Assembly: GCA_008501635.1 (NCBI GenBank)
Contig: QQUJ01000030.1
Span: forward strand, 62,001-126,000
DNA length: 64,000 nucleotides
Source: Pseudomonadota bacterium
Lineage (GTDB): Bacteria > Pseudomonadota > Gammaproteobacteria > QQUJ01
Direction of reading: 5' to 3'
The notes under the pieces are model-generated. The model had not been told where the DNA came from, did not search any database, and saw only the letters and a list, made by a program, of their open reading frames with translations. This document shows positions 52,155 to 62,813 of the stretch, one piece after another. Position 1 is the stretch's first letter; the number at the start of each line of letters is the position of its first letter. A program made the position numbers and the translations under genes.

Positions 52155-52221
52155 ACGTTTGCAACCGACGGAAACGGATGATCGTCACGCATTCAACGAT
52201 CTTATGAGAGGTTGCAAACGT
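52155..52221 (+). promoter_or_regulatory. Leader hairpin overlapping the RBS and GTG start of the lipoprotein gene
   Basis: ACGTTTGCAACC (52155-52166) is the exact reverse complement of GGTTGCAAACGT (52210-52221). The right arm includes the end of the GAGAGG ribosome-binding site and the first two bases of the GTG start. Inside the loop GATCGT (52180-52185) pairs with ACGATC (52196-52201). A folded leader would hide the start, suggesting translational control. The element matches no riboswitch class I know; it could alternatively be a DNA operator. Confidence 0.6.
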
Positions 52222-54088
52222 GACAGCAGTTTTAGCAAAGAGTGCCGCCCTTCTTGTGCGTCTTGCGACAATAGCGTTGAGTGCGACACTCCTGACTGCA
52301 TGCCTGGAGATCGGCGATCAGGAAGTCAGCAGCGGCGGGCAGGCATCCGCTGTCGGTGCACCCCTGGCGGCGCCGGAAGTGACATTTGCGGCGGCACCCG
52401 CGTCTGTCGCCCCCAATGGCTCCACCACCCTGAGTTGGAGCAGCGTCAACTCAACCAGCTGCAGTGCAACCGGCAACTGGTCGGGCAGCAAAGCAACCTC
52501 CGGCAGCGAATCCATCACGTCGATCAGCAGCGACAGCACCTACACTTTGACCTGCACCGGCGACGGGGGTACCACCAGCGAGTCCATCACCGTAACCGTC
52601 GTGGTGCCCGCAACCCCGACACTCACCCTCAGCGCCAACCCGGCGACTGTTGCCTTCGGTGCAAATTCTTCACTGACATGGTCCACCAGCAATGCTTCCG
52701 GCTGCACCGCATCCGGTGCCTGGTCGGGTTCGAAGAATACATCGGGTAGTGCATCGGTTGGACCGCTGACTGCCGATAGCACATTCACGCTTACCTGCAC
52801 CGGTGCCGGCGGCCAGATCAGCCGCTCCGCGACGATCGATGTCGGCGCCCCACCACCCGCATCGCCAACACTCTCGCTCTCGGCCAATCCCACGTCTGTC
52901 GCGTATCAGGGCAGCACCAGCGTCAGTTGGACGTCGAGCAATGTGACCAGCTGCACCGCATTCGGCGCCTGGTCCGGGTCAAAGAGTGCCAGCGGCAACC
53001 AGAGCTTCAGCGCCCTGACCAGCGATCGCACGTTTACCCTGAGCTGCACCGGCGCCGGTGGCAGCATCACGCGTTCGGTGACCGTGGCCGTTGCGCCCCC
53101 GCCTGCGCCCACGCTCAGCCTGAGCGGCAATCCAACCTCCGTGGCCTACAATGGCACCTCGGTGTTGAGTTGGTCGTCGAGTAATGCGACCTCCTGCAGC
53201 GCCGCGGGTGATTGGAGTGGCACCAAGGGCGCTTCCGGCGCCGAAACCGTGGGGCCGCTCACCAGCGACGCCAGCTATACACTCACCTGTACGGGTATCG
53301 GTGGCAGTGTGAACCGCACCGTATCGCTTACGGTGCAGGCACCGCCTGCTCCCACGATCACCTTGTCGGCAAGCCCGACGACATTGGCGGCCGGCAGTAA
53401 CGCGACCTTGACCTGGTCCACCACCAACGCCACCAGCTGCAGCGCTTCCAACGCGTGGTCGGGAAGCAAGGCAACGTCGGGCAGTCAGTCGGTGGGGCCC
53501 ATCAACAGCACCAGCACCTTTACGCTGAGCTGCTCCGGCCCAGGCGGCAGCAACAGCAGCAGCCGAACGGTAACCGTGGCGGCTGCACCAACGGTAACAT
53601 TGAGCGCCAATCCCACCTCGGTGCAATCCGGTGGATCGTCAACATTGACATGGTCCTCGTCCAACGCCACCAGTTGTTCCGCATCCGGCGCATGGTCGGG
53701 CGGCAAAGGAACCTCGGGTAACGAAACCATTGGTTCGCTGACCAGCGACAGCACCTTTACGCTGGTCTGCACAGGTACCGGTGGCAGCACCACCCGTTCC
53801 ACGACCGTCACCATCGTGGTCAACAGCTCGCGTTCGGTGGAGGTCACCTGGGATCCACCCACCACGCGCGCCGATGGCTCACCGTTGACCAACCTCGACG
53901 GCTACAAAATTCACTACGGCACTGCCTCTGGCAGTTACACGCAGACAATCACGGTGGACAACGCCAGCATTACCAGCTACACCGTCGACAATCTCACCAA
54001 CGGCACCTACTACTTTGCGGTAACGGCTTACGACACGGATGCGATGGAGAGCGGCTATTCCATGGAGGTGAGCACCACGCTCAATTGA
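52220..54088 (+). CDS. Lipoprotein with six Ig-like repeats and a fibronectin type III domain
   Basis: 622 residues. The signal peptide ends in a lipobox (LTAC, Cys28), so it is a lipoprotein. Six tandem repeats of about 80 residues (about 52-538) follow, each of the pattern LS.NP.SV..G....L.WS..N.TSC.A...WSG....SG....GPL..D.TFTL.C.G.GG...R...V.V, with one Cys near the middle and one near the end that can form an Ig-type disulfide. The C-terminus (about 540-622) is a fibronectin type III domain (VTWDPPTTRADGSPLTNLDG). A surface adhesion or matrix role is inferred. Translation starts at GTG 52220, preceded by GAGAGG. It diverges from and faces the secreted-protein cluster to its right. Confidence 0.88.
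   Translation: MTAVLAKSAALLVRLATIALSATLLTACLEIGDQEVSSGGQASAVGAPLAAPEVTFAAAPASVAPNGSTTLSWSSVNSTSCSATGNWSGSKATSGSESITSISSDSTYTLTCTGDGGTTSESITVTVVVPATPTLTLSANPATVAFGANSSLTWSTSNASGCTASGAWSGSKNTSGSASVGPLTADSTFTLTCTGAGGQISRSATIDVGAPPPASPTLSLSANPTSVAYQGSTSVSWTSSNVTSCTAFGAWSGSKSASGNQSFSALTSDRTFTLSCTGAGGSITRSVTVAVAPPPAPTLSLSGNPTSVAYNGTSVLSWSSSNATSCSAAGDWSGTKGASGAETVGPLTSDASYTLTCTGIGGSVNRTVSLTVQAPPAPTITLSASPTTLAAGSNATLTWSTTNATSCSASNAWSGSKATSGSQSVGPINSTSTFTLSCSGPGGSNSSSRTVTVAAAPTVTLSANPTSVQSGGSSTLTWSSSNATSCSASGAWSGGKGTSGNETIGSLTSDSTFTLVCTGTGGSTTRSTTVTIVVNSSRSVEVTWDPPTTRADGSPLTNLDGYKIHYGTASGSYTQTITVDNASITSYTVDNLTNGTYYFAVTAYDTDAMESGYSMEVSTTLN
52373..53835 (+). repeat. Six tandem coding repeats of about 240 bp
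   Basis: The Ig-like units of the lipoprotein are also visibly similar as DNA (recurring AGCTGCA.CGC, CCTGGTCGGG and CTGAC.TGCACCGG.GCCGG stretches). They have diverged at 20-40 % of positions by eye, so this is not a recent expansion, but conserved blocks could still recombine and change repeat number. Confidence 0.75.
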
Positions 54089-54439: not shown

Positions 54440-55783
54440 CTACTCCCTTACCAGGGCACGCCCGTTGACCACCAGACGAGCCGGTCCCGGAAGGGTCTCA
54501 CCCGGTGGCACATACGCGCTGGTCTGCCACATGCGTCCATCACGATCGCGCAGCGTGAGGGTGAAATTCTCATAAGTGTAGGTACCGCTGCCACCCGCCA
54601 TGGCGCGGCGCGCCTCGGCCTCGCTCCAGCGCGATAACATCACACCGCCATCCGGCACCACCAGATTCCATCCCGAGCCGATCATGCGCATGATATCGCC
54701 ACGATCTTCGTAACTGCCATCGGCGCGCAACACCAGGCGCGGTGCAGAGGCATCGCGATAATCAGCACGTGCATAGGTGCCTTGGAACCGCTTACCGCTG
54801 TGCGGTGAGATCTTCATCCACGGGCGTCCGCGATCCGAGATCAGGGTGTGATCGTTTTCGATAGTATAGGTCGTCGTGTAGGAGCCGCGTTGCACGATGA
54901 CACGCCTGCCCTCGCGCCGCCAGGTTCCCCACAGAATCCGTTGCTGCTGGCGCTCCCAACTGAAATCCGATGCAATTCCCCGCACCGGCAATCGGCGGCG
55001 ATAGGTGCCGTCGGGATAGAAGACATCGACCTCCAGATAGTCGCTGATCTGTGTCTGTACCTGCGGCGCCGTACCCAGGTTGGAGGTCTCGTAACGTCCC
55101 GTGGACGGATTGAAGATCTGCTGCTGTCCGCTGCCGACACCCGCGCTGGCGGAGAGGCCGCGTTCTACCCCGACGTAGACCCCCGACAGGCCCTTGCCGA
55201 ACTCTGGATCGAGTTGGTGAGATTTGATCGGCGGCGCCTTGACCGGTGCACTGACGGACGGCGCCGTGGACGCACTCACCGGATGCGTGAAGTCCTGCAC
55301 GCTGCCGATGGCGTTGACAAAAATGGACTCGTAGCGATTGTAGGTATCATCGCTGTCCGCCAGCACCCAGAAACGCGCACGCAACGAGCCTAAACGCGCG
55401 ACAGCGGTCAGTGCGGTATAGGTCGTGCCCTCCAGTTGCGTTACACCTACGCCTTGGCGAAACCCCCATCCATTTGGCAGTGATTGTTGTATGGGTTGAT
55501 GAACGGGTGTCCACGGACCGAGATCGACGAGCGCTTTTTCGTAATCCGATTCCAGTGCCCCCCCTTCGGGTACCGGTGGTTCAATAAGGAACAGCAGCGA
55601 ATTGCCGGGTGCAAGATCGCCGGGCACCGCAACCACCACATTGTTCTCAACGCTGCGTGACCAGTCGGCTGGAAGATCGAGCCACGCGACCAGATCGCGC
55701 GCTGAGCTTGCCCACAGCAACGCAGGCATCAGCAGCGCGGCGCCACAGACCTTGACCAGAACACCCGGGATACCAGTGCGCAT
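54440..55783 (-). CDS. Exported protein with internally duplicated beta-rich domain
   Basis: 447 residues, unrecognised family. A signal peptide runs to about residue 27 (ALLMPALLWASSA). An N-terminal domain (about 30-180) is followed by a Pro/Ala/Ser linker (about 180-210) and two related beta-rich halves. The first (about 225-345) contains GLSGVYVGVERG, FYPDGTYRRRLPVRG, WGTWRREGRRVIV and the second (about 350-430) contains RFQGTYARADYR, LRADGSYEDRGD, GSGTYTYENFTLTLRDRDG. The shared 'G.Y ... DG.Y..RG ... G.Y......LTLRD.DG' layout suggests a lipocalin-like or similar up-and-down barrel. AAGGA 8 nt before ATG 55783 decides the start. It is last in the minus-strand secreted cluster. Confidence 0.75.
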   Translation of the reverse strand: MRTGIPGVLVKVCGAALLMPALLWASSARDLVAWLDLPADWSRSVENNVVVAVPGDLAPGNSLLFLIEPPVPEGGALESDYEKALVDLGPWTPVHQPIQQSLPNGWGFRQGVGVTQLEGTTYTALTAVARLGSLRARFWVLADSDDTYNRYESIFVNAIGSVQDFTHPVSASTAPSVSAPVKAPPIKSHQLDPEFGKGLSGVYVGVERGLSASAGVGSGQQQIFNPSTGRYETSNLGTAPQVQTQISDYLEVDVFYPDGTYRRRLPVRGIASDFSWERQQQRILWGTWRREGRRVIVQRGSYTTTYTIENDHTLISDRGRPWMKISPHSGKRFQGTYARADYRDASAPRLVLRADGSYEDRGDIMRMIGSGWNLVVPDGGVMLSRWSEAEARRAMAGGSGTYTYENFTLTLRDRDGRMWQTSAYVPPGETLPGPARLVVNGRALVRE

Positions 55784-55961: not shown

Positions 55962-58166
55962 CTAGCGATTTCGATCGCTGGAACAAACAACCCGCTGATC
56001 ACTCAGCCTCAGCGCGCAGATTACGGAGGCGCGAGGAACATCACGATAGTTGAAAATACCGCCGGGATAGACTGCGACGACGGTCCACTCATGCCTGCCC
56101 ACGGTGCGAATATCGGGAACGAAGAATCGGGTATCCGGCGTTTGCGTGCGCGGTAAATTGCTTCCCTCAACAAAGTAGTGAATGGCGCCGAGTCTGCCTT
56201 GCCATTCCAGCAGAACCGATCCCGGAATCTGGGGTCTGACGACGGGGAAAGCCCTGAAGCCCGTGGGATTCTGCGGACCACTCGTGGTCACGGTCCGCAA
56301 TTCGCTCGCACCGGACCTGCCGTCCGGATACTGCACGGTGACCCACACGTGATGTTCTATACCGGGAGCGAGTCCGGATAAGAGAAAGTTCATCGAACTC
56401 GGCAATCCTGGCCGATTGGCACCGTCCAATGTCGGCTGCCTCACCTGCGGTCCCGTAGCGGTGTGGTTGAACCCTTTGGCGGTTGCGTGAACCTGGTAAT
56501 TGCTCGCTCCCGGCAGCGGTCTCCAGATAACGTATGCAGTGACGGCATCTTCAGCTTGCACCGCGACCAGCGACGGTCCGGATACCAAGTTGCGCATCGA
56601 CACTTCGCGCTCCCCTGCCGCAGCGTTCCCGAATTGACGCGGTACAGCGTCAACACCTGTCTGGGTCGTCGCGGTTTCGCCCTGCCGCCCGCCGCCTAAC
56701 AGAGAGACGCCACCTGTATCGCTCCCCGCCCTGGTCGCGGCGACCAGTCCGCTCCCCACTTGATAGCGCCCCGCCAACGTCGCCTGCCGGGTATTGGACA
56801 GACTCAGATAAATCCGCAACACCCCACCGCCGAACTTGCTGCTGGCCCCCGACTTCGCCGGGTCCTCGGGTAACGTGATCTCAACCTCATCCGGACTCAG
56901 GCTGTCACCCAGTTTCGCGTTCAGGCGCAGCAGCGGCTCATGCGTGGCATCATCGTCGGGATAGCCGCTTACGTGCGCATACTCCGCGCTGCCAAATCGC
57001 GCGCCCTTGAGTCGCATGGTGGCTCCCCAAGGGCCCCGTTCCGGCGCCACCGTCCCGGCGGTCGTCTCCTGTTCCGCTGTGACAAGCCGCGCCGCCTTCG
57101 ACGCCTGGGTGGCTTCGCTATAGAAACACTGATAGCGCAGGGCGTACTTAATCGGCTCATCCTTCCCTGCCTGGTGACTGCGTACCAGAGGCTCGCCCGC
57201 CGGCTCGCAACCCGCGGGACAGGGATTGCCCACCGTGGGATCGCTGCCCCAGTTAATCCATTGAGTGCCGCAGTTACGGCGCGGCGGTTGTTTTGCGGCT
57301 GGCGCAGACAGTGGAACGTACATGGCTCTCGCGTCACGCTTCGACTTGTTTCCCACATAGGGATCGTCTTCGGTCTCTTTCAGCGCACCGCCATCACCCG
57401 ATCGGGTCAACCGGGAGGCGCCGGGAGTATTACCTGCACCAATTTGATCGCTGGGCCGCAGGGACTGATCGCCGAGCGCTTTGCCGAGTGCCGGCGAATC
57501 GGGCATCCCAATCTGACCCTGCGGGCGTTTGCGTCCCACCCAAAGGTCATCCTCTGTTTCCGAGACGCTTCCGCCACCGATAGTGCGATTGTTTGATGAA
57601 ATCGGACCAGGCACCGAAGGTGCGCCGGGTATTCCCTCCTGCGCAATGCCTGGCGCATCGGCGCCTGGGACCGTGCGGCGCTCGACGATCAGGGTATCGA
57701 TACCGCCGGCACCTTCGTCGTCACCGCCCCCGCCCTGACCACCGCCCGATCCACCGCCCGATCCACCGCCACTTGAACCACCGCTGCCTCCGGAGTCGCT
57801 ACCACCGGTACCACCATCCTTCGCCAAACCACCCCGTGGCGGGCGCAATCCCCCTACACCCAGGGTCTGCTCCTCTACCTGCGGTGTCTCCTCGCCCGGC
57901 TGCACCTCGCCCGGCTGCACCTCGCGCTGCGGCACCACGTCCGGCAGCGGTGCAACGCCGGTCACCGGCGTCCTGTTCGTGACCAACGGCCTGGGCACGC
58001 TCACCCCGCCCGGCGGCGCAATGTGAGGCGCTGGCGTCCCGGGTGGCGCACCCGAGTCATCGACGGACAAGCCCCGTTCGGTTGCCACGGCGTAGGAGGA
58101 GAGGAACGCAGACACCGCGCACCACAGGAATGCGCAAGCCCTGAGTAACGTCGTGTTCTGCATCAT
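55962..58166 (-). CDS. Large exported multidomain protein with Gly-rich linker, Cys-module and Fn3-like domains
   Basis: 734 residues, unrecognised. Signal peptide (about 1-28), Pro-rich region with PGEVQPGEE repeats, a Gly/Ser-rich linker (GGSGGSSGGGSGGGSGGG), then IDTLIVERR and two copies of an ETEDD..VG.K motif (ETEDDLWVGRK, ETEDDPYVGNK). A cysteine module follows (NCGTQWINWGSDPTVGNPCP, CEPAGEPL, RYQC) and an IPT/TIG-like beta domain (PERGPWGATMRLKGARFGSA). The C-terminal 250 residues look like two fibronectin-type domains (VTAYVIWRPLPGASNYQVHA and GSVLLEWQGRLGAIHYFVEG). The linker, cysteine module and TIG-like part are homologous to the 392-residue protein two genes upstream. It starts 7 bp after the preceding gene. 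Confidence 0.82.
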   Translation of the reverse strand: MMQNTTLLRACAFLWCAVSAFLSSYAVATERGLSVDDSGAPPGTPAPHIAPPGGVSVPRPLVTNRTPVTGVAPLPDVVPQREVQPGEVQPGEETPQVEEQTLGVGGLRPPRGGLAKDGGTGGSDSGGSGGSSGGGSGGGSGGGQGGGGDDEGAGGIDTLIVERRTVPGADAPGIAQEGIPGAPSVPGPISSNNRTIGGGSVSETEDDLWVGRKRPQGQIGMPDSPALGKALGDQSLRPSDQIGAGNTPGASRLTRSGDGGALKETEDDPYVGNKSKRDARAMYVPLSAPAAKQPPRRNCGTQWINWGSDPTVGNPCPAGCEPAGEPLVRSHQAGKDEPIKYALRYQCFYSEATQASKAARLVTAEQETTAGTVAPERGPWGATMRLKGARFGSAEYAHVSGYPDDDATHEPLLRLNAKLGDSLSPDEVEITLPEDPAKSGASSKFGGGVLRIYLSLSNTRQATLAGRYQVGSGLVAATRAGSDTGGVSLLGGGRQGETATTQTGVDAVPRQFGNAAAGEREVSMRNLVSGPSLVAVQAEDAVTAYVIWRPLPGASNYQVHATAKGFNHTATGPQVRQPTLDGANRPGLPSSMNFLLSGLAPGIEHHVWVTVQYPDGRSGASELRTVTTSGPQNPTGFRAFPVVRPQIPGSVLLEWQGRLGAIHYFVEGSNLPRTQTPDTRFFVPDIRTVGRHEWTVVAVYPGGIFNYRDVPRASVICALRLSDQRVVCSSDRNR

Positions 58167-58173
58167 TCATTCC

Positions 58174-58650
58174 TCACCGCGGTATGTTGCGCGTTGGCAC
58201 CGACGGTGCGGGGAGTTCACCCGAAACCCTTTCCACCAACGCGGTACCCGGCGCGGGTCGTAAAGCTTCGTCGGCATTGTTACTAGGTAACTTGGGGCCG
58301 AACAGACTCGGACTGCCGTCCTGATTTATCCCAGTGCCGGAATAGATGTACATGCTGCACTCCCATTTCGTGGCGGACTGCCCTTTGTTCGGCTCACTTT
58401 GCACATGAATCACGACACTCTCCTTGGTCGGCCTGCCGGTTGCGGTGTCGACCGATACGGTTTCCTCGTTCCACCCCACCGCTGTGCCGTCGGGCTGCTG
58501 AATCTTGCACCCCACAATAAGGTTCTGAATCGACTCCTGCAGTCCGGATACCTGGAGAGGAACCGTAAAATTCACGGTTTGAGCTGCGACGCCTAACGGC
58601 GTCCAGGCCGTTAACAAAAGAGATGTGATGATTTTTGTTCTACCGTTCAT
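58174..58650 (-). CDS. Small exported protein of the secreted cluster
   Basis: 158 residues, unrecognised. A clear signal peptide (MNGRTKIITSLLLTAWTPLG, cleavage near VAA, about 23) precedes a beta-rich domain (VNFTVPLQVSGLQESIQNLI) with two cysteines (VGCKIQQPDG, KWECSMYIY) that could pair. The last 40 residues are Pro-rich. GAGGG about 9 nt before ATG 58650 supports the start. Its spacing to the 734-residue protein gene (7 bp) implies co-translation. Confidence 0.78.
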   Translation of the reverse strand: MNGRTKIITSLLLTAWTPLGVAAQTVNFTVPLQVSGLQESIQNLIVGCKIQQPDGTAVGWNEETVSVDTATGRPTKESVVIHVQSEPNKGQSATKWECSMYIYSGTGINQDGSPSLFGPKLPSNNADEALRPAPGTALVERVSGELPAPSVPTRNIPR

Positions 58651-58706
58651 GGTGTGATTCCCTCTTTCCGTGATTCGAACTAGTCGGTTCCGCGCCGTTA
58701 AATGCA

Positions 58707-59885
58707 TCAGCGCGGGGGTTGTGGCGTGAGGCCAATGCGGCCACTCAAGGCTTTCGGCAATACCGGCCGGGATCGCAATCGTTGACCCGCCATCTGCAGC
58801 GCTGGCGTCGTAAGCGAGAGGGGAGGCAGTTCGAGTTCCTCGCGGGGCGAAGTCCCCAGGGTCGCGAGCCGCTTACCGGTCATTCGCAAGGGCAGCGTGG
58901 TCAGTGCGGTCGGCGGTGATGTGAGTTCGCGATTGGCTCCTGCACTCAGGCGCAGGAGTCTTTTACCGGTCATCTGCAACGGCGACGTAGTAACCGCGAT
59001 GCTCCCTTCGGCAAGCGTCTTTTCGCGCGCAACGTTGCCCAGTTGCTGAGGTTGCACGCTGTATCTACCCGCCAGCAGCGGTTCCACGTTTTTGGGTAAA
59101 AATAGATACACCCGCACCACTCCACCCTTGATCTCGCCCGACCATCCCGACTTGGCAGGATCGCTCGGCAACTGGATGTCGATCGCGTTGGCTCCATGCC
59201 GCCTGTGGATCGTGGCGGTCTGCTGCATGACAGCGGGTTGAGTGTCATCATCGTTGGGATACCAGTACACCCGCACGCTCTCCACGCTAGCGAACTTCTC
59301 GCCGCTGACGCGCACCGAATCACCCCAACCTCCGCTGTCAGGCGTCAGGGTGCCGACGGCCTTGACGGGCATGCGCGGCCCGCTGCTGATTGTCTGTGCG
59401 CTGAGTACGCGATTGCATTGATACTGCCTGGCCACCACCACGGTCTCACCCTGTGGATGGCTCTTCTCAAGCAGCATTTCACCCGGTTCGCAGTTGGCGG
59501 GACAGGGATTGGTCTGGGGATTTTTCTTGTCGGCCCAATCGGTCCAGTGGGTCCCGCAACTGATGCGTTTCATGGACGCCGGCTTCGCCGACGGGGCAAT
59601 GTCCCTAGCCGCCTTGGCATCCGGCTTGGGTTTGTTGCCGACATAAAGATCGTCTTCGGTCTCCCTGGCACCCCCGCCGCTGCTCTCCGACCGCGCGCGG
59701 TCGGTAGCGCGTTTCCTGGCACGCTCAACGATCAGATCGTCGATATCATCGTCGTCGCCGGTTTTTGCGCCCACCAGAAAACCTGACGCTGCGAGCATCG
59801 ATGTGGAACTATCGCTCGCGCCTGTCATATCGGCCATGGCCATAGCCATGAGTCCAAGAACGCAAAGTATGAAAAACCGATACAT
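58707..59885 (-). CDS. Exported paralogue of the large cluster protein, with C-terminal triple repeat
   Basis: 392 residues, unrecognised. Signal peptide to about residue 19 (MYRFFILCVLGLMAMAMADM). It shares, in the same order, modules of the 734-residue protein: IDDLIVERARK, ETEDDLYVGNKPKPDAKA, the cysteine module CGTHWTDWADKK...NPCPANCEPGE, and the TIG-like domain ending in LPSDPAKSGWSGEIKGGVVR...LAGRYSV. It lacks the Gly-rich linker and the two C-terminal Fn3-like domains. Instead it ends with three related segments of about 30 residues (SPLQMTGKRLLRL, LPLRMTGKRLATL, PALQMAGQRLRSR). ATG 59885 is preferred because GGGAG precedes it and the signal peptide starts there. Confidence 0.82.
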   Translation of the reverse strand: MYRFFILCVLGLMAMAMADMTGASDSSTSMLAASGFLVGAKTGDDDDIDDLIVERARKRATDRARSESSGGGARETEDDLYVGNKPKPDAKAARDIAPSAKPASMKRISCGTHWTDWADKKNPQTNPCPANCEPGEMLLEKSHPQGETVVVARQYQCNRVLSAQTISSGPRMPVKAVGTLTPDSGGWGDSVRVSGEKFASVESVRVYWYPNDDDTQPAVMQQTATIHRRHGANAIDIQLPSDPAKSGWSGEIKGGVVRVYLFLPKNVEPLLAGRYSVQPQQLGNVAREKTLAEGSIAVTTSPLQMTGKRLLRLSAGANRELTSPPTALTTLPLRMTGKRLATLGTSPREELELPPLSLTTPALQMAGQRLRSRPVLPKALSGRIGLTPQPPR

Positions 59886-60029
59886 CAACCGCTTCTCCCT
59901 CATCTTTCATTTCAGTCCAACGGACCGCGGTGATCCATTTCTACGCCATTGCCGCGTCACGCACAGTCACATTGCTGGCAGCCAACAACACCGGTCGGTG
60001 CGCTTTTTTGAACACCACGAGGGGTCCCG

Positions 60030-61475
60030 CTAAAACAACTTCTTCAGCGCCTTCCAACCCTTCTTGGCAGCGTCCTTGATCTCGTCCTGCGGTTGGCTCG
60101 GTTGCTCGGGCTGCGCCGCCGGTTGCGACTGCGGCTGGGCGGTCCGTTGCGAGGCCGCTTGCGCTACGGCGTCGTAGCGCATTCCCAATACACCGTGCGG
60201 GCCCAGACTGGCGGTACCCTTAGCAAGCGGTGCACGATCGCGGGAGTAGCTCTTCTCGTCGCCGCGCAACGCCTCGTCGATGACGATCAACGTGTAATAA
60301 GCCTCCTTCTCCACGGCGTTGAGGTACTCCAGCCAGGTTCCCCAGATGGCTTGGTCCATCTTCTTGCCTTGTGCCGCCATGGCTTGGTTTTCCTGCGCCT
60401 GCCCGGCGGCACTCGCGGCCGCTGAGCGCTCGTCTTCCTGGCGCTCCAGGGCGGCCAGTTCCGGGTGGCTTTCGACGAGCTTTTCCAACTCTTCATCAAC
60501 GGCATCCGCCTCGTCGAATTTGCCCGCTTGCATCAGCGTGCCGAGCTTCTTGGTGAGTTCCGTGTAGCGGCGCGCGGCCTGCGGATTCTTCTTCATGAAG
60601 GCGTTGAATCTGGCGTCTTCCGGCGTTGCGTCCTCGTTGGCAGGTCGTGCCGTATTCGCGGCCTGCTGCATCTGCTGAATTTGCGCTTGGCTCGGCATCA
60701 TGGTGCCGAAGGCCGCTTGCTTGAGCTCGTTCTGTTTTTTGCTGTAGCGAGCGCTCAAAGTTGCATCCACCGCTTCCGATTTCGGACCCTTGCGCTGGAA
60801 GAACGCCGACTCGACGCGACTGCGTTTCTTGTAGAGGGCATCCAGTTCCGCCGGCTTGCGTTTTCCGGGCTCCCCGTTGAACCAATCAACACCTTCCAGG
60901 AAGCCGCTGAAATGCCGCAACCCGGCGTAGAACTGATAGGCCTCCTGCCCCGCCCAGCTATCATCCGTGTTCTTTGCCTCCTTGCCCCTGGGCGGAAGCG
61001 GCGCCAGCGCGTGCAGGGAAATACCTCGATAAGTAGGGCCGGTTTCACCCCCGGACTTGGTGATCGCCGTTTCGACATACGCCGCGTAGGCCTGCGCGGG
61101 CGTCTGACCCGACGCTCCCTTGAAGGCCTGCATCGCCCCGAGGGACTTTTCGTAGAACGCCTTGACCTTGTCGATGGGGTCGCGGGTCAGAAAGCACCAG
61201 GAGCGGTCATTGCCGCTTGCCGCGGCCTGTGTCGGTGTCAGAACCTTACCGTCGAAACCCCGCGATGGGTCCAATCCACGGCAATCGAGGGCTTGCAGGC
61301 CACCGAAGCTCGCGGGACTGCGTGGCGCGTTCTTGACACCAGCGGCTGGAAAAGCAGGCACCGCACCCTGGTAGAGCGGTGCCACCAGCTTCGGGGATTC
61401 CGCCGCCCACGCGCCGCTGATCAACAACAGCGCCGAGGCGAGCACCGTGGAACGGAGTGTCATCGAAGTTTTCAT
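60030..61475 (-). CDS. Exported alpha-helical protein of unknown function
   Basis: 481 residues, unrecognised. A signal peptide ends at GAWAA (about 25). An N-terminal region with two cysteines (LDCRGLDPSRGFDG, RSWCFLTRDPIDKVKAFYEK) is followed by long Glu/Lys/Gln/Ala-rich helices with coiled-coil character (about 215-390), a Gln/Pro-rich stretch (QPQSQPAAQPEQPSQPQ) and an amphipathic end KKGWKALKKLF. The 'DP.DKV..FY...LG' segment resembles short domains that recur in exported proteobacterial proteins, but I cannot name the family. AGGAAAG before the ATG supports the start. Confidence 0.78.
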   Translation of the reverse strand: MKTSMTLRSTVLASALLLISGAWAAESPKLVAPLYQGAVPAFPAAGVKNAPRSPASFGGLQALDCRGLDPSRGFDGKVLTPTQAAASGNDRSWCFLTRDPIDKVKAFYEKSLGAMQAFKGASGQTPAQAYAAYVETAITKSGGETGPTYRGISLHALAPLPPRGKEAKNTDDSWAGQEAYQFYAGLRHFSGFLEGVDWFNGEPGKRKPAELDALYKKRSRVESAFFQRKGPKSEAVDATLSARYSKKQNELKQAAFGTMMPSQAQIQQMQQAANTARPANEDATPEDARFNAFMKKNPQAARRYTELTKKLGTLMQAGKFDEADAVDEELEKLVESHPELAALERQEDERSAAASAAGQAQENQAMAAQGKKMDQAIWGTWLEYLNAVEKEAYYTLIVIDEALRGDEKSYSRDRAPLAKGTASLGPHGVLGMRYDAVAQAASQRTAQPQSQPAAQPEQPSQPQDEIKDAAKKGWKALKKLF

Positions 61476-61592: not shown

Positions 61593-62684
61593 CTACGGTC
61601 TCGCAGCGTTGTACTCTCTAAACAGTCGCCAACTGATGGATTGGGTTATCGCCAAGTCTTCTTCCTCTTCAGCCTTTTTGATGAAAACGGAATCTCCCGC
61701 GAGGGTGGCGTTATCTCCTCGCAGTCGTTGGTACCCCGGTTCGGCGAGGCTTGTTTGTGTTGTCAGCGGAAGCGTCAACTCCATCTCTTCTATCGTCGTC
61801 GTATCGCCATCTACGCACTTATGCGGTGCAACCACAGAGAACAATGTGCTGAAGATGTAGGAGTCTAGCGATGAGTAGAGGAACAGATTGCCGCTAAGCG
61901 GGGCGTCAGGATTGAACGAGACCAAGTTCGACTTGAGTTGATCCAACTGGAGTTGACAGGTTCTCGAATCGTCCTTAACCGTCCACTGTTCGAGCTTCAC
62001 CCAAAATCTCATTTTGGTAAGCCATGCCGAGCCGGGCGCGATGTCGTAGCGAACCCCGCCTTCGAACGCCTCTGCGAAATCGAAAACCAGCCGCGCTGTG
62101 CCAGAGTATTGAGTGGTTTCGCCCTGCTCGACACGCTTGCCGCTGAACGAAATCTCTCCCACGTAGAACTTGCCGTCGACAATGGTGATGTTGAGGACCG
62201 CCGTCCCCCCCTGCCAGCCCCGGGGATCCAATTCCGCGCTGATCGTAACGGTTGCCGGATTGGGAACCGTTTTCGGAGCGGTATAGACGGCTTTATTCCC
62301 GTTCGCCTTGATGTGACCGACGACGCTGTTGCCACCCCTGATGCCGTTTACGCTCCACTCGGTTGTAATCAGCTTGAACAGCGGCTTTTTGAACATTGCC
62401 TGGTCGTGCCTGGACAAGCGTTCGTTGCACTCAAAGTAAATGGATTGGTCTCCCCGTGAGTTCCTGAAACAGTACTTCACCTCCAACGGCAATGACTGGA
62501 AGACGCTGATCAAATCTTTCTGTGGCAGTATCTGCGCCCCATGGAGATCCGAAGGCACTGAGAGTTCTGGCGCCACGAGCGGCGCGAGTATGTCGCCCTC
62601 GGACGCCGCCGAAGAAATCGGTGCAAAGACCAGTTCCGTGCCGATCAGGCCCGCGCAGGCAAGGGCTCGAAACACTCTGTGCAC
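61593..62684 (-). CDS. Exported beta-rich protein of unknown function
   Basis: 363 residues, unrecognised. Signal peptide (HRVFRALACAGLIGTELVFA, cleavage near SSA). The body is beta-rich with segments such as TTEWSVNGIRGGNSVVGHIK and ANGNKAVYTAPKTVPNPATV, a pattern common in bacterial Ig-like repeats of surface proteins (W...G..G....G....G.YTAP..VP.P..V). Cysteines are few. The start is GTG 62684, chosen because GGAGGG stands 6 nt upstream; an ATG 12 codons earlier (62720) has no ribosome-binding site. Confidence 0.78.
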   Translation of the reverse strand: MHRVFRALACAGLIGTELVFAPISSAASEGDILAPLVAPELSVPSDLHGAQILPQKDLISVFQSLPLEVKYCFRNSRGDQSIYFECNERLSRHDQAMFKKPLFKLITTEWSVNGIRGGNSVVGHIKANGNKAVYTAPKTVPNPATVTISAELDPRGWQGGTAVLNITIVDGKFYVGEISFSGKRVEQGETTQYSGTARLVFDFAEAFEGGVRYDIAPGSAWLTKMRFWVKLEQWTVKDDSRTCQLQLDQLKSNLVSFNPDAPLSGNLFLYSSLDSYIFSTLFSVVAPHKCVDGDTTTIEEMELTLPLTTQTSLAEPGYQRLRGDNATLAGDSVFIKKAEEEEDLAITQSISWRLFREYNAARP

Positions 62685-62813
62685 AGCAAACCCTCCGTGG
62701 GATAAGGAATAACGCCGCATCGACGCTCCGCTCAGCGATTTCCCGGGTGGTGCGCCAAGCCACCTTCCTGTATCGGTAACTCCCTTTGCATGAACCCTCG
62801 GCTCACCCATCAG

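Follow-up and report, generated by a model that had tools for sequence, protein, structure and literature searches.

Surface proteins often contain TIG and Ig-like domains. The IPT/TIG domain has an E-set Ig-like fold of about 80-100 residues, and the thrombospondin type 1 repeat carries six cysteines in three disulfides on a three-stranded fold. When the tail of one protein stands free elsewhere beside the same neighbour family, this is a classical fusion-type hint of partnership. The window, i.e., the whole stretch of 64,000 nucleotides that was analysed (G000:C30:62001-126000), contains a run of genes for exported-looking proteins, two of which, P0001 and P0002, share a core and differ in their ends. 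The short repeats at the end of P0002 are found at other loci as a small protein of their own, whose gene lies next to a relative of P0003.

Seven genes make up the run, all co-directional on the minus strand and ordered P0009, P0006, P0005, P0002, P0003, P0001, P0004. Gaps between the ORF bounds are at most 144 bp, and the run is operon-like. All seven products start with a hydrophobic signal-like segment, as judged by eye on the sequence, and none of them gave a significant match in Pfam, NCBIfam or PHROGs. The frame of P0002 gives 392 aa from the ATG at 59885 and 398 aa from the ATG at 59903; residue numbers refer to the longer form. It is laid out as a signal-like segment, an acidic linker, a Cys module, a predicted TIG domain and three MTG repeats. 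The layout of P0001 is a signal-like segment, a Gly-rich stretch, linker motifs, a Cys module, a predicted TIG domain and an Fn3-like C-terminal part. P0002 stops at 58707 and P0003 starts at 58650 on the same strand, with 56 bp between them. Beside P0009, outside the window, lie a divergent LuxR-type response regulator and, beyond it, a hybrid histidine kinase near the NahK/ErcS type, both possible regulators of the run. Residues ~151-212 of P0006 make up a bacterial Ig-like stretch (WSVNGIRGGNS...YTAP), common to two nearby paralogues in another genome (G039, L025) and weakly similar to Deinococcus and Thermus plasmid proteins. In addition, the plus strand of the window encodes at 52220-54088 a lipoprotein-like protein of 622 aa (LLTAC) with about six tandem Ig-like repeats carrying S.TSCSASG.WSG.K motifs, and with a C-terminal fn3 domain (PF00041, E 2e-6).

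Table 1. Features of the gene run; positions are those of the window unless a contig or locus is given.
Feature	Position	Strand	Remark
P0009, C-terminal part, 484 aa	62814..63998	-	full G000:C30:124814-126268; start beyond window end
P0006, exported-looking, bacterial Ig-like stretch	61593..62810	-
P0005, exported-looking orphan	60030..61475	-
P0002, 398 aa (392 aa from ATG at 59885)	58707..59903	-
P0003, ~158 aa, small exported-looking, two conserved cysteines	58174..58650	-
P0001, 734 aa	55962..58166	-
P0004, exported-looking orphan, last gene of run	54440..55783	-	likely start 55783
ID.LIVER of P0001 (IDTLIVER), residues 156-163	57678..57701	-
ID.LIVER of P0002 (IDDLIVER), residues 54-61	59721..59744	-
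First ETEDD..VG.K of P0001 (ETEDDLWVGRK), residue 203	57528..57560	-
Second ETEDD..VG.K of P0001 (ETEDDPYVGNK), residue 264	57345..57377	-
ETEDD..VG.K of P0002 (ETEDDLYVGNK), residue 81	59631..59663	-
Four-Cys module of P0001, residues 299-347	57126..57272	-
Four-Cys module of P0002, residues 116-163	59415..59558	-
Predicted TIG/IPT-type domain of P0001, residues ~369-472	56751..57062	-
Predicted TIG/IPT-type domain of P0002, residues 182-285	59049..59360	-
Fn3-like C-terminal part of P0001 (weak)	56037..56564	-	PF00041 E 0.11
Three MTG repeats of P0002, TTSPLQMTGKRL, TTLPLRMTGKRL, TTPALQMAGQRL	58776..58991	-	period 30 residues
LuxR-type response regulator	L004:12398-13030	+	outside window
Hybrid histidine kinase	L004:13059-15122	-	outside window

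BLASTP aligned residues 259-470 of P0001 with residues 76-283 of P0002 over 217 columns at 41% identity (E 7e-41), and the local alignment score was 378, whereas 300 shuffles reached at best 69; by this alignment the two proteins are true paralogues. Their common core extends from ETEDD..VG.K across the four-Cys module into the predicted TIG domain. A conserved core with swapped ends had been claimed in an earlier, sequence-only reading of this DNA. The similarity is indeed long and not of the short, low-complexity kind, while the C-terminal parts score below shuffles and have no mutual resemblance. The order of common elements given in the same reading was recovered as well, with ID.LIVER, ETEDD..VG.K, CGT.W...NPCP..CEP, DPAKSG and LAGRY following each other in both proteins, and ETEDD..VG.K present twice in P0001 and once in P0002. 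Given the composition, ETEDD..VG.K would be expected by chance ~5e-8 to 6e-8 times per protein, and ID.LIVER, which the N-terminal parts have in common within an acidic stretch, ~5e-7 times. The linker motif, all four module cysteines, DPAKSG and LAGRY are unchanged between the two proteins.

The core was searched for with a single protein and with a two-row profile in 56 and 369 genomes of the class and in 398 genomes of the phylum, the genomes drawn as relatives being all from other families of the same class. The profile search for further copies, proposed along with the sequence-only reading, gave none outside the seven-gene operon. No relatives of the core were found in the 369 class genomes or the 398 phylum genomes, nor in two pattern scans of 84,980 species genomes, viral contigs and plasmids, samples and scans which can miss distant or rare relatives. 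Two weak matches in the phylum (L018, L019) were rejected, as they overlap unrelated aminotransferase-like and RND-transporter ORFs in other frames, and so was a match to P0005 in G081 (20.8 bits), which has two stops inside. P0004 and P0009 had no relatives in 185 class genomes. Searches of PDB sequences returned weak, unconvincing matches only, among them one of P0004 to a fucose-binding lectin, at E 0.005 but with no single stretch that passes by itself. The lack of core relatives anywhere searched would suit fast-evolving orphan genes of little function, with the shared core as a passive duplicate, but we consider this very improbable. The linker motif, the four cysteines, DPAKSG and LAGRY stayed unchanged despite an old duplication, as seen from the 41% identity, and third-position GC in the run (0.65-0.75) is like that of the housekeeping neighbours (0.69-0.75).

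The core alone (180 residues, two sequences) was modelled with a mean pLDDT of 70.9, high in the TIG part (best blocks 86-92) and mostly 41-60 in the Cys module. VIA-align of this model returned as top rows Rel/NFAT C-terminal, CGTase, plexin and galactose-oxidase domains, all known to be of IPT/TIG type; the best row had Z 9.6 over 96 residues with an rmsd of 2.7 A. For a longer model of P0001, whose overall confidence is low, CGTase-type domains headed the list (Z 8.7). The Pfam TIG sequence model was unmatched: the core of P0002 matched no family at E up to 10, and that of P0001 only Gmad2 (E 0.18). The domain is therefore supported by fold and not by sequence profile, and it is the predicted structure of the core, with Z up to the value above, that bears out the TIG-like domain of the sequence-only reading. 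The model supports an E-set Ig-like fold, as expected of an IPT/TIG domain, for the second half of the core.

The structural rows of P0001 also include a Bacteroides surface glycan-binding protein (6e9b, Z 7.5). Together with the frequency of TIG and Ig-like domains in surface proteins, the Ig-like stretch of P0006 and a core for which no relatives were found, as is common for surface proteins, this row would agree with a lineage-specific adhesin or matrix set. The ligands of the TIG, Ig-like and Fn3-like domains would then be surface polysaccharide or other cells, and domain shuffling without fixed partners would alone account for the swapped ends. This is unlikely in our view, since the linkage between repeats and P0003 family described below is conserved across family groups, a conservation not expected from domain shuffling alone, and since inspection of P0001 and P0002 by eye showed no sortase, PEP-CTERM-like or lipobox anchor.

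The C-terminal repeats of P0002, VTTSPLQMTGKRL, LTTLPLRMTGKRL and LTTPALQMAGQRL, are spaced by exactly 30 residues. They had earlier been read as a triple M-T-G-K-R-L repeat, which holds except that the third copy reads MAGQRL. Distant relatives of P0003 were found at six other loci (G088, G754, G755, G146, G071 and G000:C28) in a search that covered a sample of the class. At family level their genomes make up four groups (f1, f72, f89 with three genomes, and f147), and G000:C28 is a second locus of P0003 type within the same genome as the window. The relatives are divergent, with 20-23% identity to P0003, and P0003 alone as query matched G088 with E 3.7e-8. C49, G60, C99 and G108 are invariant in the seven family members. 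By its conserved cysteines and the significant profile match, P0003 belongs to the two-Cys family defined here.

Every P0003 relative found, at the six other loci, is adjoined by an ORF for an exported-looking product with repeats of the TT.PL.MTG type. The repeat protein of G000:C28 (TTRPLEMIG, TTAGLEMLG, ATDPLEMIG) is encoded 11 bp upstream of the P0003 relative, and that of G088 (TTDPLTFTGR, TTEPLRFTGR) immediately upstream. Also upstream are the repeat proteins of G146, with six copies of GTLTMTGLGG, and of G754 and G755, with two degenerate copies each. At G071 the gene order is reversed, and ~eight copies of LLTTSALRY type are encoded downstream; this member and its repeats are the weakest of the six loci. 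As a control, the repeat pattern was run on 2,871 frames of at least 40 residues from 214 kb of window and loci, where the only matches besides the repeat ORFs were two membrane transporters homologous to each other. As the sequences were already known when the pattern was written, a matrix was built from five other loci without P0002. On the six frames of the window, this matrix placed the P0002 repeats first, second and third of 102,643 peptides, with scores of 17.2, 17.2 and 13.6 versus 11.4 for the next peptide. The test is largely independent, because its loci were chosen from P0003 and not from the repeats. By these scores the repeats of P0002 belong to the TT.PL.MTG repeat family defined here. 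The tested repeat proteins and the P0003 family matched no Pfam or NCBIfam model above cut-off, and a look for five guessed repeat peptides in literature text found no occurrence, which is weak evidence.

Adjacent and on the same strand, P0002 and P0003 of the window fit the pair of repeats and P0003 type seen at six other loci. With matching repeats beside P0003 relatives elsewhere, the tail of P0002 therefore has a conserved neighbour. Some further genes were noted around the pairs. In the three f89 genomes (L024, L030, L031) the repeat ORF is preceded by a gene with a similar acidic end (NDPLDQVE, ESIESDIGLDWESED and DTIESDNEIDWED), which puts the pair behind the same gene in all three. Near the second pair of the window's own genome, a protein of 611 aa (L036:729-2564, minus strand) looks by eye like a peptidase of papain type with a lipase-like part after it. 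The G146 pair is adjoined by a protein with an OmpA-like C-terminal domain, also by eye (L037:6244-7212, minus strand), which hints at an envelope setting.

The linkage of repeats and P0003 family is purely genomic, and the repeats, two to ~eight in number and some of them degenerate, would suit a docking site and a loose signal equally well. The main rival to docking is a common role in export, anchoring or processing, where the two are functionally linked without mutual binding, the repeats as a secretion, anchoring or processing element and the P0003-type protein as a co-exported or chaperone-like factor. We regard this as possible, though on the unlikely side, as the repeats, C-terminal in P0002, account for almost all of the mature protein in G088, where little is left for them to anchor or export. 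A tail that is free-standing elsewhere with the same neighbour family is a hint of partnership, and we infer, as the simplest reading, that the repeats may dock P0003. After export, the core would dock on a common component of the cluster or of the envelope. The three evenly spaced repeats of P0002 would serve P0003 as docking peptides, and P0001 (734 aa) would engage something else with its Fn3-like end, so that two core adaptors would bring different partners to one extracytoplasmic assembly. This joint explanation, of paralogous core adaptors with a repeat tail that docks P0003 and an Fn3-like end that goes elsewhere, we find plausible at somewhat less than an even chance. Different partners had been suggested from the sequence alone. 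The suggestion gains indirect backing for the repeat tail, through its free-standing counterparts beside P0003 relatives, while neither the Fn3-like end nor the core yielded evidence of this kind; in the genomes searched, the core, P0004, P0005 and P0009 had no relatives to show co-occurrence.

More broadly, P0002 and P0003, which come from an isolated bacterial lineage, point to an undescribed pair of putative partner proteins. A slightly more tentative proposal is an undescribed extracytoplasmic partner system of several families of the class, in which an exported protein with two to ~eight short repeats would be bound by a two-Cys protein. It would have been captured here as the tail of a Cys-module/TIG adaptor in a seven-gene exported complex, next to a paralogous adaptor with a different end. 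Orphan proteins become in this way a testable module. If confirmed, it would give the first function for a repeat and a protein family without a match to Pfam or NCBIfam models, and would show how an exported TIG adaptor gained one docking tail and its paralogue another.

Several known modules can be compared with the locus. The Cys module is found in a third copy at the N-terminus of P0009, just outside the window (~G000:C30:126005-126151), and the four cysteines are conserved in all three copies. It resembles the thrombospondin type 1 repeat in the order C...W..W...C...C..G...C, with equal C-x3-C-x2-G spacing in two of the three copies, but has four cysteines, not six, and a longer stretch from W..W to the next Cys. 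PF00090 was the only Pfam family to match it, in one copy of three and below the cut-off (E 0.2, 12.3 bits versus 21.6), and the assignment was kept as a resemblance only. Three strands are predicted for the module, in its low-pLDDT part of the model; the structural match lists cover the TIG part only, and absence of the thrombospondin repeat from them proves nothing, because the TIG domain fills them. With IPT/TIG domains the core shares the predicted fold of its second half, and differs in that this half is fused to a Cys module and a linker motif found nowhere else. Fibronectin type III (PF00041) is the best Pfam match of the C-terminal part of P0001, in line with the Fn3-like domains proposed in the sequence-only reading, but the match is weak, at 13.2 bits below the cut-off of 25 (E 0.11), and pLDDT of the P0001 model is <50 there. 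The closest likeness of the locus as a pair is to the unnamed one of a small exported TT.PL.MTG-repeat protein and a P0003-type two-Cys protein. The window agrees with it in adjacency and motif, and in having the P0003 family downstream of the repeats, as everywhere except G071. The difference is that a Cys-module/TIG protein carries the repeats as its tail in the window, whereas the repeat protein is free-standing elsewhere.
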